Source: Deltaproteobacteria bacterium (GTDB lineage Bacteria; Desulfobacterota; Desulfobulbia; Desulfobulbales; VMSU01). Taken from it: 37,458 nt of DNA. Location: the NCBI GenBank assembly GCA_021782655.1, contig JAJXUT010000013.1, positions 1 to 37,458 of the forward strand, in the 5' to 3' direction. A program made the translations under genes and the position numbers. The notes under the pieces are model-generated. The model had not been told where the DNA came from. It did not search any database and worked only from the letters and a program-made list of their open reading frames with translations. Positions 27,121 through 37,088 of this stretch are shown here, one piece after another (within the stretch, counting starts at the first letter, position 1; each line of letters starts with the position of its first letter).

Positions 27121-30100
27121 TCAAATCGGCAGGATGTGCACCTCGCGCCGCAGTGGGTGCCGTCCCCGCAGGAAGAGCCCCTTGCGGCCATCGATGCTGA
27201 TCGGGTCGCCGAAACGGATCACCTGACCGCTGATCTCGCAGCGCTCCTCGGCCTCGTACACCTTGAGATTCTTACAGCCCACCACGCAGGTCTTGTCCAG
27301 CCGCAGGGCCACCAGGGAGGCGTGGGAGGTCTGGCCGCCGCGGGCGGTGAGCAGGCCATCGGCCTTGGATATCTCCTTGATGTCCTCGGGCACCGTGTCC
27401 TGACGGATCAAAATCAGCGGGGTGCCGGGGTCTTCCTGACGCAGACGGGCGATATTGGCCACCGTGAACACCGCCCGCCCGGCGAGCGCGCTACCGGAGA
27501 CGCCAATCCCCTTGCCCAGGATGGACTTGCTGGTCTCCAGGGAGTCGGCGAAGGTGTCGAAGTTCTCCTGCTTCTTGATGGTGATCATGTCCCGGGTCTG
27601 GAGGATGTAGAGGTCCCCGGCCTCCGGGCCCTCAAAGGTGAACTCGATGTCCTGGGGGTTCCACTGCTTCTCATACACCAGGTCGCGGGCGATGTCCCGC
27701 AGCCGCTGATAGACGTTGGGGAAGCGCCGTTCCAGGGACAAGTCCTTGGAACGGCCGTCGATCTCCGCCTGCTCCACCGAGATGGGGTAGGTGGTGACCA
27801 GCCCGGAGACAATGTCCTCGCCCTGATCGGCGGGGGCATAGTCACCCCACAGGGCCACCCGCCGCACCTTGCGGTAGGGGTGGGCGGTGAACAGCACCCC
27901 GCTGCCCGACTCCTGGCTGTGGTTGCCAAAGACCATCGCCTGGATGATGACCGCCGTGCCCCAGGCGTCGGAAACATCCATCAGGGCCCTAAACTCCTTG
28001 GTCTTGGTGGTGTCCCAGGAGTCGAGTACCGTCTCGATGGCGCCGGTGAGTTGCAGCCAGGGGTCGTCGGGGATGCCGATGCCAATACCACGGATCGCCT
28101 TCTGGTAGTTCAGGGCCAGGTCCCGCATCTGCTCGGACGAAAACTGGCGCTTGACCTGGACATCGTGCCGGGCCTTGGCCTTGTTCATCAGGGTCTGAAA
28201 GACCTCGCGCTCCACCCCCTTGGCCATGGCCCAGGATTGCAGGAAGCGGCGATAGTTGTCCCAGGCCAGATACTCCTGGCCCGACTCCCGGGCGAACTCT
28301 GCGGCTAGGTCCTCGTTTAGGCCGACGTTGTGCAGGGTGGCCATCATCCCCGGCATGGAGACAGCGGCGCCGCTGCGCACCGAGACCAGCAGGGGATTGG
28401 CCGGGTCGCCGAACCGGCGGCCCATCCGGGCCTCCATCTCACTCAAGGCCTGACGGATCTGGCCCATGAACTCGTTCTTGGCCTTGAAGAAGTCCTTGAC
28501 CACCGGCCAGCAGCGGAAGATCTCGGTGGTGATGATAAATCCCGGCGGCACCGGCTTGTCGTCGGCGGCGAGCGTGGTCAGGTTGTAGCCCTTGTTGCCC
28601 AGCATGATCAGGTTGTGGGTCTTGGGGTTTAAGCGATGCAGGAAGCTGATGACATTCTCCGGGTTGTAGGTCATCAGCAGGTCGAGGTTGCTCTCGCTTA
28701 ACACCTCCTTCTGGCTCTCCAGGGTTTGGTAGATGCGGGTGATGAAGTTATCCAGATTCTGGAGCCCGAAGGTGCCGGCGATGAGATCCCTTAAGAAGGA
28801 TTCGTTTAGGCGGTGCACCGAGCCGCTTAGGTCGTCGTCCCGCCACCGGTGGCGGTAGCGGGGCAGGAGGTTGGCAGGCCCGATCTGGGGGGCGATGATG
28901 GCCAGGTTATTCTGGTGAACGTTGGTGTAGTAGGCGTAGATGATGTCCTTGACCCCCTCGGACAGGCCCCGGAAGATGTCCAGGTACTGGGTGAAGGAGA
29001 AGCGCTTCTGCTCCACCGAGCTTGCGAGCAGCGCCAGGTAGGTCTCCAGGTGGCGGGAGGTGATACCGTCGATCTTCAGCGCCCGCAGATACAGCTTCAG
29101 GCAGGCCAGGATGCGGATGAAGGTCGCCTCGGTGATGAAGGCGGTGTTCACCATCTCGGGCAGCCTTTCGAGATAGAGGTTGGCCAGGTTCTCCAGCCGG
29201 AAGGTGAGGCCCAGGGCATCGAACTTCCGCTCCCGGTAACGGCCATAGACCGAGGGGATGTCCACCGCGATGTGGCGCTTGTAGTAGATATCCTCCTTGG
29301 CCTCGAAGGTCTCGGGGCTGAGGATGATGGTTTGCAGCCACTCCAGGCGGGCGAGGATGGCGTCCAGGCACTCGCAGGTGTTGTCGCCGCTTTTCGTAAG
29401 ATCGTCCATCAGGGTGTCGATCTCCGGGAAACCGGCGTTGGCGGCGATCTCAAGCTGCTGGCGCAGGCCCTGGAGCCCCAGATTGTATTTCTCGTAGAGC
29501 AGGGTGTACATGTGCACCAGGAGGGCGAAACGCCGCACCTCCACCGGATTCAAGTCAGACTGCTGGGCCAGGAAGTTGTCCCTGGTCTTCGCCTCCCAGG
29601 TGAGCAGGTCATCCACCCGCTTGAGGTCCGGCAGCTCGAAGACCCGTTTCATCAGGATGTTCAATTCGTCGACGAAGGGGCCGCTCTCCCGGAGGCCGTA
29701 CAGGACCTCCGGGGGCAGAAACTGCTCCAGCACCCGCTTGTCCTTGGTGCGCCAAAAGCTGAAGATGGCCCGGATGAAGTTGACGATCAGGTTGCTCGAC
29801 TCTACGTGGCTCTGCTTGCGCAGGAAGTGGATCAGGGTATCCTGGCGGCGGTGGGTCTCGTCCAGTTCGGTCGACACCTCGCGCAGCTCCCCCTCCGCGC
29901 CTATCTCGTTGAAGAATACCGGCAAAAGCTTGGCAAACTGCTTGGCCAGGTTGTAGATCGGGGCGATGGGGTGGTTAAGCAGCTCGGTGATGTCGCGCTG
30001 AAAGAGGTCGGTGTCCTTGATGCAGGTGCCGGAGAGATGCAGGTTGATGATCAGGGCCGAGAACAGGGTCGAGCACCACTTGGGCTCCTGCATGATGAGC

Positions 30101-31497
30101 GACAGCCAGACCCGGATGTTGACCAGGTGGGCGGGGTTGGCGATCGGTTGCCAGTCCTGATCCACCCCGGTGACGTTGGCGTACTGGAAGCCGAAGCGCA
30201 CCACCTCCCAGAGGAAGCTCTCCACCAAACCGCCGCTGCCCTTTTTGAAGATCTCGGTGCCCAAGACCTGGATGCACTGCAACGAGGTGTGGGGGAACTT
30301 GTTGACGTTGGCCTTCAAGAGCTGGAAGGTGGTGAGCAGAAACTTCTCGATCTCCTCGAACGACTGCTCGTGCACCAGGAGCACCAGGGAGCGGTTGATC
30401 TCGCGCAGGGTCTCCTCGTGGATCAGGAAGAGCCCGGGGGTGTCCATGATCTTAAACAGGAAGAGGAGCTTGCGGTTTTCGGCGAAGCGATCCACCTCCG
30501 TCTCGCCGCCGGACGGGGGAACGGGCGGGCGCTTGCCGCCGGGGTAGCCGGCGTTGGGGAAGGGAACGGTAAGCAACTTGGCCGGAATCTCTTTGTAATT
30601 CCTTACGATCTCCAGATGGGTGGGCAGTTCGAGCAGGGCCGTCAGCCGCTCGGCGGGCGGCAGGCCGCTGGCCTCGTCCGCCGCCTGCAGGTTGCCCTGC
30701 ATGGCCTGATGGGAAATACGTTCAAATAGCCCTGCCACATCCCATTCGCCGTCGTTGTGGCCGCAGGCCTTGGTGAACCAGGGCAAGGGGTCTTCCTCGC
30801 CCAGCCAGTAACGGTAATCGTTGACCAACAGCCGGCTGTAGAGGTTGACGAAGGGGCCGAGCTCAAACCCCACCGGCTGGCCGGTGGCCAGCAGGGCGGT
30901 GGCGATCTTACGGATCGGATGATAACCTTGCCCCATGAGCATCAAGACATGTTCGTCAAGACCCACGATCTCGGCCAAGGCCCGGTTTAGCGCCGTTTGG
31001 TGCCGGACAAGGTTCTCTCCGTCCAACTCGGCGATAAACTTTTCCAGATAGGCCAAAAGCGATTCCACCGCCTGGGCCAGGATGCTGTCCCAGTTCTTGG
31101 GCGAGTCGACGGAGCCGGCCAGAACGCCCGCCCCCTGACCCAGGGACGACGCGGCCAGCCTCTTCGCCTTCAAGTTGTCCCAGGCCTGGCCGATGGCCGT
31201 CAGATGGATGTCCACGATCTGGCCAAGGGCCTCCGGCCCCCGCACTTGACGGGCGTACAGCAGGGTATGCCGCAGGATGAAGGCCCTGAGCTTGGGCAGC
31301 ACCAGGCTCCAGTTACGGAAGGGATGGTTGATCTCCAGCAACAACTCGCTTATTGCCTGATTGATCCCCTTGTAATCCTTGGCCATATCGGCAAGTACCC
31401 GCTGTTCTGGAGCGATGGCCACCTCCTCGACGGCGGTCTCCTGGAGGTTGGCCTTTAAGGCGTCGGAGTCGATGGCGGGGGTGACGGTCTGGGGCAT
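27121..31497 (-). CDS. PPDK-like ATP-grasp/phosphohistidine protein with large unknown N-terminal region, no PEP/pyruvate barrel
   Basis: The 1458-residue protein has three parts. Residues 1 to about 950 are mostly helical, Leu-rich and unlike any domain I recognise. Residues about 960-1305 are a PPDK-type nucleotide-binding domain: LGNKGYNL, PPGFIITTE, SVRSGAAVSMPGMM and the closing QDIEFTFEG..LYILQTRD. Residues about 1306-1440 are the swivelling phosphohistidine domain, with TARGGQTSHAS and His1392. The protein ends there: the C-terminal TIM barrel that binds PEP/pyruvate in PPDK and PEP synthase is absent. By analogy with other dikinases of this fold (glucan water dikinase, rifampin phosphotransferase), it may use ATP to phosphorylate another acceptor, with the N-terminal region as the acceptor part; that is inference. 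It closes the glgA-gapA-ompA unit. No signal peptide; cytoplasmic. Confidence 0.82.
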   Translation of the reverse strand: MPQTVTPAIDSDALKANLQETAVEEVAIAPEQRVLADMAKDYKGINQAISELLLEINHPFRNWSLVLPKLRAFILRHTLLYARQVRGPEALGQIVDIHLTAIGQAWDNLKAKRLAASSLGQGAGVLAGSVDSPKNWDSILAQAVESLLAYLEKFIAELDGENLVRHQTALNRALAEIVGLDEHVLMLMGQGYHPIRKIATALLATGQPVGFELGPFVNLYSRLLVNDYRYWLGEEDPLPWFTKACGHNDGEWDVAGLFERISHQAMQGNLQAADEASGLPPAERLTALLELPTHLEIVRNYKEIPAKLLTVPFPNAGYPGGKRPPVPPSGGETEVDRFAENRKLLFLFKIMDTPGLFLIHEETLREINRSLVLLVHEQSFEEIEKFLLTTFQLLKANVNKFPHTSLQCIQVLGTEIFKKGSGGLVESFLWEVVRFGFQYANVTGVDQDWQPIANPAHLVNIRVWLSLIMQEPKWCSTLFSALIINLHLSGTCIKDTDLFQRDITELLNHPIAPIYNLAKQFAKLLPVFFNEIGAEGELREVSTELDETHRRQDTLIHFLRKQSHVESSNLIVNFIRAIFSFWRTKDKRVLEQFLPPEVLYGLRESGPFVDELNILMKRVFELPDLKRVDDLLTWEAKTRDNFLAQQSDLNPVEVRRFALLVHMYTLLYEKYNLGLQGLRQQLEIAANAGFPEIDTLMDDLTKSGDNTCECLDAILARLEWLQTIILSPETFEAKEDIYYKRHIAVDIPSVYGRYRERKFDALGLTFRLENLANLYLERLPEMVNTAFITEATFIRILACLKLYLRALKIDGITSRHLETYLALLASSVEQKRFSFTQYLDIFRGLSEGVKDIIYAYYTNVHQNNLAIIAPQIGPANLLPRYRHRWRDDDLSGSVHRLNESFLRDLIAGTFGLQNLDNFITRIYQTLESQKEVLSESNLDLLMTYNPENVISFLHRLNPKTHNLIMLGNKGYNLTTLAADDKPVPPGFIITTEIFRCWPVVKDFFKAKNEFMGQIRQALSEMEARMGRRFGDPANPLLVSVRSGAAVSMPGMMATLHNVGLNEDLAAEFARESGQEYLAWDNYRRFLQSWAMAKGVEREVFQTLMNKAKARHDVQVKRQFSSEQMRDLALNYQKAIRGIGIGIPDDPWLQLTGAIETVLDSWDTTKTKEFRALMDVSDAWGTAVIIQAMVFGNHSQESGSGVLFTAHPYRKVRRVALWGDYAPADQGEDIVSGLVTTYPISVEQAEIDGRSKDLSLERRFPNVYQRLRDIARDLVYEKQWNPQDIEFTFEGPEAGDLYILQTRDMITIKKQENFDTFADSLETSKSILGKGIGVSGSALAGRAVFTVANIARLRQEDPGTPLILIRQDTVPEDIKEISKADGLLTARGGQTSHASLVALRLDKTCVVGCKNLKVYEAEERCEISGQVIRFGDPISIDGRKGLFLRGRHPLRREVHILPI

Positions 31498-33416: not shown

Positions 33417-35015
33417 CTAAATGGCCTTCCGGGCGGCGGCGTAGAGTTCCAGATACCGCTCCCGGACCTTTTCCCAGGTGTAACGCTCGCGAATCAGGCC
33501 CACCGCCGCCCGCTGCATGGCCAGCAAGGCAGGACGGGAGTTCCGGTACAGGTGCATGGCCCGCCGCATGGCCTCGGCCAGGGCCAGGCCGCTGAACTCG
33601 TGGAAGGCGAATCCCGTCTCCCCGTCCACCACCTTGACCAGGCCGCCGACATGATGGACGACTGGCAGGTTGGCGAAGAGCTGGGCGATGAAATCGGTGA
33701 GCCCGCAGGGCTCGTAGCGGGAGGGGATAAGGAAGAAGTCGCCCGCCGCGTACACCCAGTTGGCCAACTGGGGATCGAAGCCCCTAAGCAGGCAGAGACG
33801 GCCACGATGCCGGGGATCGCGGCTCATGGCGATCAGGGCCTCCTCGATCTCCGGCTGGCCGGAGCCCATAATTAGTATCTGGAAATCGCGGTCGATAGGC
33901 AACAAGTATTTGAGGGCCTCGATCATTTTGTCCACCCCTTTTTGGGAGGAGAGGCGGCCAATGAAGGTGAACAGGGGCTGCTCGGGCCGAAAGTCGAGGC
34001 GGCCGTCTTGACGCATCCCGGCCAGCCGCCGCTGAGCGATGGCCAGACCCAACTCCTCCCGGCAGACCTCCTTGCCGGACCGCTGGCCGGCGGCGGGCGG
34101 CTGACCGGGGATGAAGCCCGCCGGCAATCCCAGGGCCTGGTAGTTGGCGAGATCGGAGTCCGCCGGGTCGATGCCGTTGGTGATCCCTTGCAGGATAACC
34201 CCGCGCTTTTTCAAGGCATGGCCCAGCCAGCCGGTCAGGGCGTCAGCCTCCGTCTCCCGCAGCTCCCGGGCGTAGTTCTCGCTCACCGTGTTCAAGGCGG
34301 CGTAAGAGGCGGCGGCAAGAAAGGGGTCGAAGGCGTTGTTTAAGAGGTTGCCCTTAATCACCCTAAGCGGCAGGCCGGTGATCCGCTGGGCAAAGGGCAG
34401 GTCGGCGACCTCCTGGTGATAGCCCAGTCCGGCGTTGTGGATGGTGACCAGGCAGCCGCTGTCCCGGAAGTAGTGGCGGAAGCCGTCCTGCTCCCGGATC
34501 AAGGCCGGCGTCAGGGCGGCATGGCCGTCGTGGCAGTGAATAATGTCCGGGCGCTCGCCCATAAGGATCAGGAGGCAGAGGGCCGCCTTCTGCAGGAGGA
34601 CGTTCATGGCAAAGTAGTCGTAATGGCCGCGGCCCTGGCGATGATCCGGGTGCTGGCGCTCCTCCTGGGCGGTGTAGGTGTAAACGCCAAGCTTCTCAGC
34701 GAAACGGGGGCTTTCGAGCAGATAGACCTCCACCCCGCCCTCGGTCTTACGCCAGACCGAGACCGGCTCCCGCCGCTCCTCCTGGGGATAGGACATGTCA
34801 AGCTCGAAGGTCAAACCGGCGGCGGGGGCAAAGCCTAAGGCGCGAGGCTCCATGAAGCCGTAACGGGGCAGGATGACCAGCACCCGGCGGCCGCTCCCGG
34901 CCAGGGCCAGGGCCAGTTGCCGGGCCACGTCCTTTACCCCGCCGGCCCCGGCCAGGGCGCCGTATTCACGGGTGAGGACAACGATGGAACCAATAGCGGC
35001 AGGATCAGAGGGCAT
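33417..35015 (-). CDS. glgA: Glycogen/starch synthase-like glycosyltransferase (GT5)
   Basis: The product is 532 residues from ATG 35015, chosen because GAGGAG stands nine bases upstream and homology starts at IVVLTREYGALAGAGGVKDV; the open frame continues upstream through a terminator palindrome and is not coding there. GT5 features: N-terminal Rossmann half, DIIHCHDGHAAL, LVTIHNAGLGYH, ITNGIDP, FIGRLSSQKGVD and the C-terminal RYEPCGLTDF. It should add glucose from ADP- or UDP-glucose to alpha-1,4-glucan. The KxGG loop typical of bacterial glycogen synthase reads G23-A-G-G here, so the nucleotide-sugar-binding Lys is lost; the donor or acceptor may differ. The first gene of the glgA-gap-ompA-PPDK-like unit. 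Moderately sure of glycogen synthase function. Confidence 0.85.
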   Translation of the reverse strand: MPSDPAAIGSIVVLTREYGALAGAGGVKDVARQLALALAGSGRRVLVILPRYGFMEPRALGFAPAAGLTFELDMSYPQEERREPVSVWRKTEGGVEVYLLESPRFAEKLGVYTYTAQEERQHPDHRQGRGHYDYFAMNVLLQKAALCLLILMGERPDIIHCHDGHAALTPALIREQDGFRHYFRDSGCLVTIHNAGLGYHQEVADLPFAQRITGLPLRVIKGNLLNNAFDPFLAAASYAALNTVSENYARELRETEADALTGWLGHALKKRGVILQGITNGIDPADSDLANYQALGLPAGFIPGQPPAAGQRSGKEVCREELGLAIAQRRLAGMRQDGRLDFRPEQPLFTFIGRLSSQKGVDKMIEALKYLLPIDRDFQILIMGSGQPEIEEALIAMSRDPRHRGRLCLLRGFDPQLANWVYAAGDFFLIPSRYEPCGLTDFIAQLFANLPVVHHVGGLVKVVDGETGFAFHEFSGLALAEAMRRAMHLYRNSRPALLAMQRAAVGLIRERYTWEKVRERYLELYAAARKAI

Positions 35016-35097
35016 GGGCGTAACTCCTCGGGGGCATGACGGAAGGGGAAGTCCGGACGGCATCCCGGACTGGCGAGAAAACGGCAAGGCCAGGGGA

Positions 35098-35185
35098 TAA
35101 AAAAAAGGCAGGACCGGAATTCCGGTCCTGCCTTTCCAAGGAGGAGAGTAAAAAGACAGAAAGGAGGTTTCTGTGCAATTCAATT
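35098..35185 (-). ncRNA. Candidate sigma-54-dependent small RNA (or glgA leader attenuator)
   Basis: Transcription from the sigma-54 promoter at 35194-35209 would start near 35183 and stop in the T-run near 35098, making an RNA of about 88 nt. Visible parts on the minus strand: a short AU-rich 5' end; a hairpin ACAGAA / TTCTGT (about 35175-35157) whose loop exposes ACCUCCU; a single-stranded U-rich stretch with CUCUCCUCCUU (about 35148-35138); and a 32-base perfect palindrome ending in eight U. No coding frame with a ribosome site is present. The two CCUCC segments are complementary to Shine-Dalgarno sequences, a feature of several trans-acting small RNAs. It lies between groEL and glgA. The other reading is a conditional leader of glgA, since no clear promoter was found between the palindrome and the glgA ATG. 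Confidence 0.55.
35104..35135 (-). terminator. Perfect 32-base palindromic terminator upstream of glgA
   Basis: AAAGGCAGGACCGGAA / TTCCGGTCCTGCCTTT pairs over 16 bases and, on the minus strand, is followed by a T-run to 35098. The A-run on the plus strand before it shows the minus-strand orientation. There is no protein-coding gene on the minus strand between the groEL terminator and this one. Confidence 0.85.
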
Positions 35186-35193
35186 CTTCCAAA

Positions 35194-35209
35194 AGCAACC
35201 ATCGTGCCA
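35194..35209 (-). promoter_or_regulatory. Near-perfect sigma-54 (-24/-12) promoter
   Basis: Minus strand TGGCACGATGGTTGCT (preceded by C) matches the RpoN consensus YTGGCACG-N4-TTGCW at every conserved position, with GG at 35208-35207 and GC at 35196-35195, 12 apart. The start is predicted near 35183. Confidence 0.75.
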
Positions 35210-35284: not shown

Positions 35285-35316
35285 GGGGCAAATGCCCCAG
35301 AATGGGTATTTTTACC
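35285..35316. promoter_or_regulatory. Inverted repeats upstream of the sigma-54 promoter
   Basis: GGGGCA-AA-TGCCCC (35285-35298) and GGTA-TTTT-TACC (35305-35316) lie about 77-108 bp upstream of the -24 element, the usual distance for enhancer-binding protein sites. The activator is unknown. Confidence 0.4.
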
Positions 35317-35364: not shown

Positions 35365-35400
35365 AAAAAGGCAGGGCAGCCCTTGCGAGCCCCCTGCCTT
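35365..35400 (-). terminator. Rho-independent terminator of groES-groEL
   Basis: On the minus strand AAGGCAGGG and CCCTGCCTT arms (about 35368-35376 and 35392-35400) form a stem with a 15-base loop, followed by TTTTT. It stands 30 bases after the groEL stop. Confidence 0.8.

Positions 35401-35429: not shown

Positions 35430-37088
<1,659 letters not shown>

Follow-up and report, generated by a model that had tools for sequence, protein, structure and literature searches.

A candidate sigma-54-dependent small RNA gene with anti-Shine-Dalgarno segments between groEL and glgA in a deltaproteobacterium

The window analysed here, which is the whole stretch of 37,458 nucleotides taken from contig JAJXUT010000013.1, belongs to a metagenome-assembled deltaproteobacterium (genome G000), and the assemblies with which it was compared are incomplete. 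On its minus strand, a sigma-54 promoter lies in the gap between groEL (35430-37085), the upstream neighbour, and the glycogen synthase gene glgA (33417-35015, ATG at 35015), the downstream neighbour. This -24/-12 element, TGGCACGATGGTTGCT (35194-35209, minus strand), was found by pattern scan and is conserved in four related loci. It fits TGGCACG-N4-TTGCW exactly, as no other site of the window does, in agreement with the sequence-only reading, which had called it consensus-perfect; the other five window matches to the sigma-54 consensus have two mismatches each, which is chance level. The invariant GG and GC stand directly upstream of a short, predicted non-coding transcript, here termed the class A RNA, which has its own terminator and is independent of the flanking gene. 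With a start near 35183, placed by promoter spacing, this RNA would be UUGAAUUGCACAGAAACCUCCUUUCUGUCUUUUUACUCUCCUCCUUGGAAAGGCAGGACCGGAAUUCCGGUCCUGCCUUUUUUUU, about 85 nt long (35099-35183, minus strand), the length and terminator-bound end that had also been proposed earlier. A groEL terminator recognisable in the sequence (35365-35400, minus strand) parts the small RNA gene from the chaperonin operon. Elsewhere in the window, the minus strand encodes a 1458-aa protein (27121-31497) whose C-terminal third has domains like those of pyruvate phosphate dikinase, whereas the N-terminal ~950 residues match nothing in NCBIfam.

The class A RNA has a predicted fold of -36.5 kcal/mol (z = -6.8), and none of 200 shuffles folded equally well. 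Fold prediction and the alignment of four homologues give a 5' hairpin, ACAGAAA-CCUCC-UUUCUGU (35156-35174, minus strand), in which the CCUCC loop has a predicted unpaired probability of 1.00. The earlier proposal of a hairpin exposing ACCUCC is borne out in this genome for the CCUCC, though the loop is missing in G006. Overlapping the hairpin, ACCUCCUUU (35160-35168) comprises nine bases identical to the 3' end of the organism's own 16S rRNA (GGATCACCTCCTTTTAAAG). The main conserved segment is the anti-Shine-Dalgarno (anti-SD)-like CUCUCCUCCUUGG (35136-35148, minus strand), which is the same in all four class A RNAs. It had been described as a second unpaired stretch, and it is indeed present and invariant, but it is only partly open, with an unpaired probability of 0.37-0.67 for its CUCCUCC in the predicted folds of the four homologues; the anti-SD layout is one CCUCC loop plus one partly open CUCUCCUCC stretch. 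The RNA ends in an intrinsic terminator, AAAGGCAGGACCGG AATT CCGGTCCTGCCTTT followed by a T-run (35099-35135, minus strand), which is supported by the fold and by covariation, three of its pairs having changed on both sides within the four sequences. The 16-bp perfect stem reported before corresponds to a 32-nt perfect palindrome, for which a stem of 14 bp capped by AATT, followed by the T-run, is the best reading.

In a search of 58 genomes, the class A block was found in G003 (94% identical), in G001 (81%), and, weaker but recognisable, in G006, so that no more than four genomes are known to carry class A, in two genera and three different surroundings. In G003, a genus-mate of the source genome, the block keeps its position between groEL and glgA, and the refuting condition named by the sequence-only reading, absence of the block from relatives that retain this gene order, therefore does not apply. 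In G001 it also follows groEL but is succeeded by a convergent ankyrin-repeat gene rather than glgA, while in G006 it lies after a multihaem cytochrome gene and before tRNA-Met and a Fic gene. Constant in all four loci are the promoter, UUGCACAGAA...UUCUGU, CUCUCCUCCUUGG and the terminator. A covariance search with the promoter-hairpin-terminator block, which had been suggested as a check, returned full-length matches including the promoter at the four loci (E 1e-18 to 1e-27); E-values from such home-made models are rough, and these scores are not independent evidence because the same four sequences built the model. Of 234 genomes of the order, 119 contain the sigma-54 promoter pattern, and a backwards control gave very few hits. 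A GTDB-wide pattern scan for the core gave 26 loci, of which only two are real, both in JAJYJA01 (the G003 genome); the others were rejected because neither a promoter nor a terminator flanks the motif. Sequences resembling the terminator from other families of the order (L005-L009) and the pattern matches L021-L026 were likewise rejected as unrelated.

A further conserved feature, unreported by the sequence-only reading, is the palindrome GGTAAAAATAC(C). All four class A genomes have it some 110 bp before the promoter, at -107 to -113, as an island amid diverged upstream DNA. Its palindromic form, GGTAAAAATACC, is present in three of the four loci. In the window, the putative enhancer-binding-protein site reads GGTAAAAATACCC (35304-35316, minus strand), and comparison of upstream regions points to an inverted repeat, GGGGCATTTGCCCC (35285-35298, minus strand), as the second half of the putative enhancer region. 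The repeat is loosely kept, reading GGGGGCCATTTCGCCCC in G003 and GTGGGGGGTATCCCCC in G001, and is not clear in G006. The palindrome lies at a distance from the promoter at which sigma-54 activators usually bind, and the position falls within the ~80-150 bp that would suit the enhancer site of a stand-alone sigma-54 small RNA gene. The 12-mer palindrome pattern has 23 occurrences in ten family genomes, a count that leaves out the G003 locus, which carries GGTAAAAATACG, and a sigma-54 promoter follows only at the class A ones; because of this exclusive pairing, the palindrome is probably the activator site of the class A promoter. In a regulon search of the ten family genomes with GGTAAARATACC, the remaining sites lay mostly within open reading frames and none had a sigma-54 promoter downstream. 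Two GGTAAARATACC sites near sigma-54 activator genes of another genus were set aside as coincidental, being inside a long reading frame and without a sigma-54 promoter. The source genome has 14 genes with a sigma-54 activator domain, such activators being numerous in the genomes of this lineage, and no activator gene was seen adjoining the class A locus.

The same genome carries a related RNA, class B, at C96:14153-14203 (L014 1501-1551), which is also present in G001, G002 and G003 (loci L012, L013 and L039). Classes A and B share a CUCCUCCUUGG-terminator core, except that G002 (L039) has CUCCUCCUUG instead. The class B promoter is sigma-70-like, TTGAC-17-yATAnT, and the 5' hairpin differs from that of class A. 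In G000 and G003 the promoter spacer contains a palindrome, TACTACrTTGTAGTA, which is not kept in G001 or G002. Genes for a Ppnp nucleoside phosphorylase and a deaminase are found near class B.

Taken together, the window most probably contains a stand-alone gene whose product, a trans-acting small RNA made under sigma-54 control, masks ribosome-binding sites, probably without Hfq, a reading to which we assign a probability of roughly 0.72. An enhancer-binding protein, probably seated on GGTAAAAATACC about 110 bp upstream, would activate sigma-54 polymerase at 35194-35209, and the RNA of about 85 nt would stop at its own terminator. CUCUCCUCCUUGG, together with the CCUCC loop in this genus, would mimic the 3' end of 16S rRNA and pair with the purine-rich ribosome-binding sites of certain mRNAs, and translation of these would be blocked. 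Since CUCUCCUCCUUGG is an extended anti-SD sequence, pairing with mRNA ribosome-binding sites is the obvious mechanism that we infer, by analogy with NfeR1/alpha-r14. Hfq (Pfam PF17209) was not detected in G000, G001, G002, G003 or G006, in which positive controls matched, and the pairing would therefore be Hfq-independent. Within the window, predicted duplex energies with 26 translation starts were no stronger than the coding background; pairing with the glgA start (-13.1 kcal/mol) is unexceptional, the 5% level of the background being -14.5. If confirmed, one of the 14 sigma-54 activators has a small RNA as its dedicated target, and such RNAs would offer a tractable case of Hfq-free base-pairing control, because Hfq went undetected in the five genomes tested.

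The sequence-only reading had raised the alternative of an attenuated 5' leader of glgA, in which the sigma-54 transcript stops at the terminator unless a signal permits read-through into glycogen synthase. The two are on the same strand, the terminator ends about 84 bases before the glgA start, which leaves little space for another promoter, and the arrangement is retained in G003. Yet a conserved place before glgA is seen in G003 only, and the promoter, RNA and upstream site are still kept in G001, with its convergent ankyrin-repeat gene, and in G006, with tRNA-Met and Fic. The leader is disfavoured, and we regard it as unlikely, because the block is also found without glgA behind it; in addition, the CUCCUCCUUGG-terminator core also exists as a separate gene in class B, and no alternative antiterminator fold of the class A RNA was seen among the predicted structures. 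Kept amid differing neighbours, the block is by this sequence comparison an independent small RNA gene, which precedes glgA by happenstance in two genomes and is not primarily its leader. One might also consider that the transcript encodes a short peptide or that GlgA is extended at its N terminus, as the glgA frame stays open upstream across the small RNA block (window 35015-35198) and gives a 593-aa ORF starting at TTG; the earlier statement that there is no coding frame is therefore not strictly right. However, the TTG forms part of the -12 element and lies ahead of the transcript, there is no ATG with a ribosome site, the frame is interrupted by the terminator, and two homologues have no glgA downstream. 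Because the TTG precedes the transcript start and the homologues have frame-shifting indels, the block is not coding, and the chance of a coding role is negligible. The open frame is an accident of composition, which could mislead automatic start calling.

The RNA might instead act as a sponge or ribosome decoy, a copy of the 16S 3' end that would titrate unbound mRNA leaders or S1-type proteins wholesale rather than regulate specific mRNAs. The identity of ACCUCCUUU with the 16S 3' end, the several anti-SD RNAs in one genome and the unselective pairing predicted within the window all suit such a role. Against it, the constant segment CUCUCCUCCUUGG is longer and more specific than a bare CCUCC and is identical across two genera, and titration on that scale would take very large amounts of the RNA; we regard the decoy as quite unlikely. 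A stand-alone, sigma-54-dependent small RNA with anti-SD segments, as proposed in the sequence-only reading, is the interpretation that the comparison of genomes supports. The analysis gave no support to the proposed tie to nitrogen, surface or stress signals, and it led to no assignment of an activator, signal or target.

Stand-alone small RNAs with a dedicated sigma-54 promoter and an enhancer site are exemplified by Qrr in Vibrio, GlmY/GlmZ in enterobacteria and CrcZ/CrcY in Pseudomonas. Qrr is present in several copies, which pair close to ribosome sites; like GlmZ, it works with Hfq, and CrcZ titrates Crc/Hfq via CA-rich motifs. To our knowledge, none of these RNAs has the sequence or fold of the class A RNA. 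Against Rfam, the class A block had no match at the gathering threshold, and the permissive threshold gave only sub-threshold, chance-like matches. For suhB/mmgR (RF00519) the block scored 17.8 bits against the 41 needed. For alpha-r14/cuckoo (RF02344) the window had no match at the gathering score, and ar14 was absent even from the permissive list for the block; the G028 relatives reached a sub-threshold 32 bits against the 58.8 needed. The class A RNA also lacks a set of hairpins each exposing CCUCCUCCC, which characterises NfeR1/alpha-r14 ("cuckoo") of alphaproteobacteria, where three hairpins each carry this anti-SD motif (PMC10746234). NfeR1 is short, trans-acting and Hfq-independent, bears its anti-SD CCUCCUCCC unpaired and is tied to the sigma-54 activator system NtrBC (PMC10746234), and class A as proposed here would resemble it in these respects. 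Class A differs in its single loop plus linear stretch, in its sigma-54 promoter and in the lack of any match in Rfam. NfeR1 and NtrBC form a double-negative loop (PMC10746234), and NfeR1 is therefore not sigma-54-activated in the same way. In Desulfovibrio vulgaris, Dv_sRNA2, whose function is unknown in the source, is a target of the NtrC-family regulator DVU0679 (PMC3333781). Compared by description only, it resembles the proposed class A RNA as a small RNA that is a sigma-54 activator target in a sulfate reducer with a conserved binding site, but unlike class A it is encoded just downstream of its regulator gene (PMC3333781). CJnc230 (FlmE) of Campylobacter jejuni is RpoN-dependent, with a 12-nt single-stranded anti-SD stretch between its two hairpins; unlike class A, it is mostly RNase III-processed from flgE mRNA rather than made from a sigma-54 promoter of its own, and its anti-SD is CCUU (PMC11187230). 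The literature searched contains no account of RNAs like the present ones from this phylum. Sigma-54 small RNAs and anti-SD small RNAs are known kinds, and the present family appears to be undescribed.

A second sigma-54 small RNA of the source genome, class C, lies at C19:24517-24614 (L198 1501-1598) and comprises a sigma-54 promoter, CUCCCAAUCUCCUUUCC as a similar anti-SD segment, and a terminator whose loop is C-rich; no Rfam family matched it. As an independent RNA of comparable design, it lends support to the reading of class A given above. Its model, R3, has the consensus TGGCAyG-N4-TTGC ... CTTATCTCCTTTC ... terminator and matches 88 of 156 genomes and 41 of 57 genera of the order, as well as nine genomes outside the order but inside the phylum. 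The conserved sequence blocks are the promoter and UUAUCUCCUUUC. In the terminator, both-side changes affect 12 of 13 pairs over 50 distinct sequences, and no shuffle of 500 reached the score, which is favoured by the fitting of the alignment to the model. The window block itself scores 32 bits against R3 (E 0.001, such E-values being rough), mainly through promoter and terminator, and the TTATCTCCTTTC segment differs. Many class C promoters (loci L195-L221) are preceded, at about -60 to -190, by palindromes GTAyAAAAAATTGTAy, often two, which are probably class C activator sites distinct from the class A palindrome.

The order-wide presence of class C suggests that sigma-54 control of anti-SD RNAs is, if confirmed, an old and common regulatory layer in the phylum. 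It is possible, although we put it somewhat short of an even chance, that sigma-54 anti-SD RNAs form an undescribed set spanning the phylum, of which the window RNA is a lineage-specific member. Each class would have an enhancer palindrome of its own, GGTAAAAATACC in class A and GTAyAAAAAATTGTAy in class C, and the RNAs would act as Hfq-free, signal-specific translational brakes; one genome would then run at least three such RNAs, two under sigma-54 and one under a sigma-70-like promoter. The models and motifs enable a search of cultured relatives with existing RNA-seq data.

In several families (L195-L218), class C is located between aconitase-like and DUF362-like genes, as judged by eye from translations, a synteny that may hint at iron or carbon metabolism. 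Some genomes have two to five class C copies, with five in G051 and three each in G037 and G057. The three of G028 are class C-like sigma-54 RNA genes in tandem on contig C43 (L191 732-832, 1075-1175 and 1394-1490), just upstream of tRNA genes.
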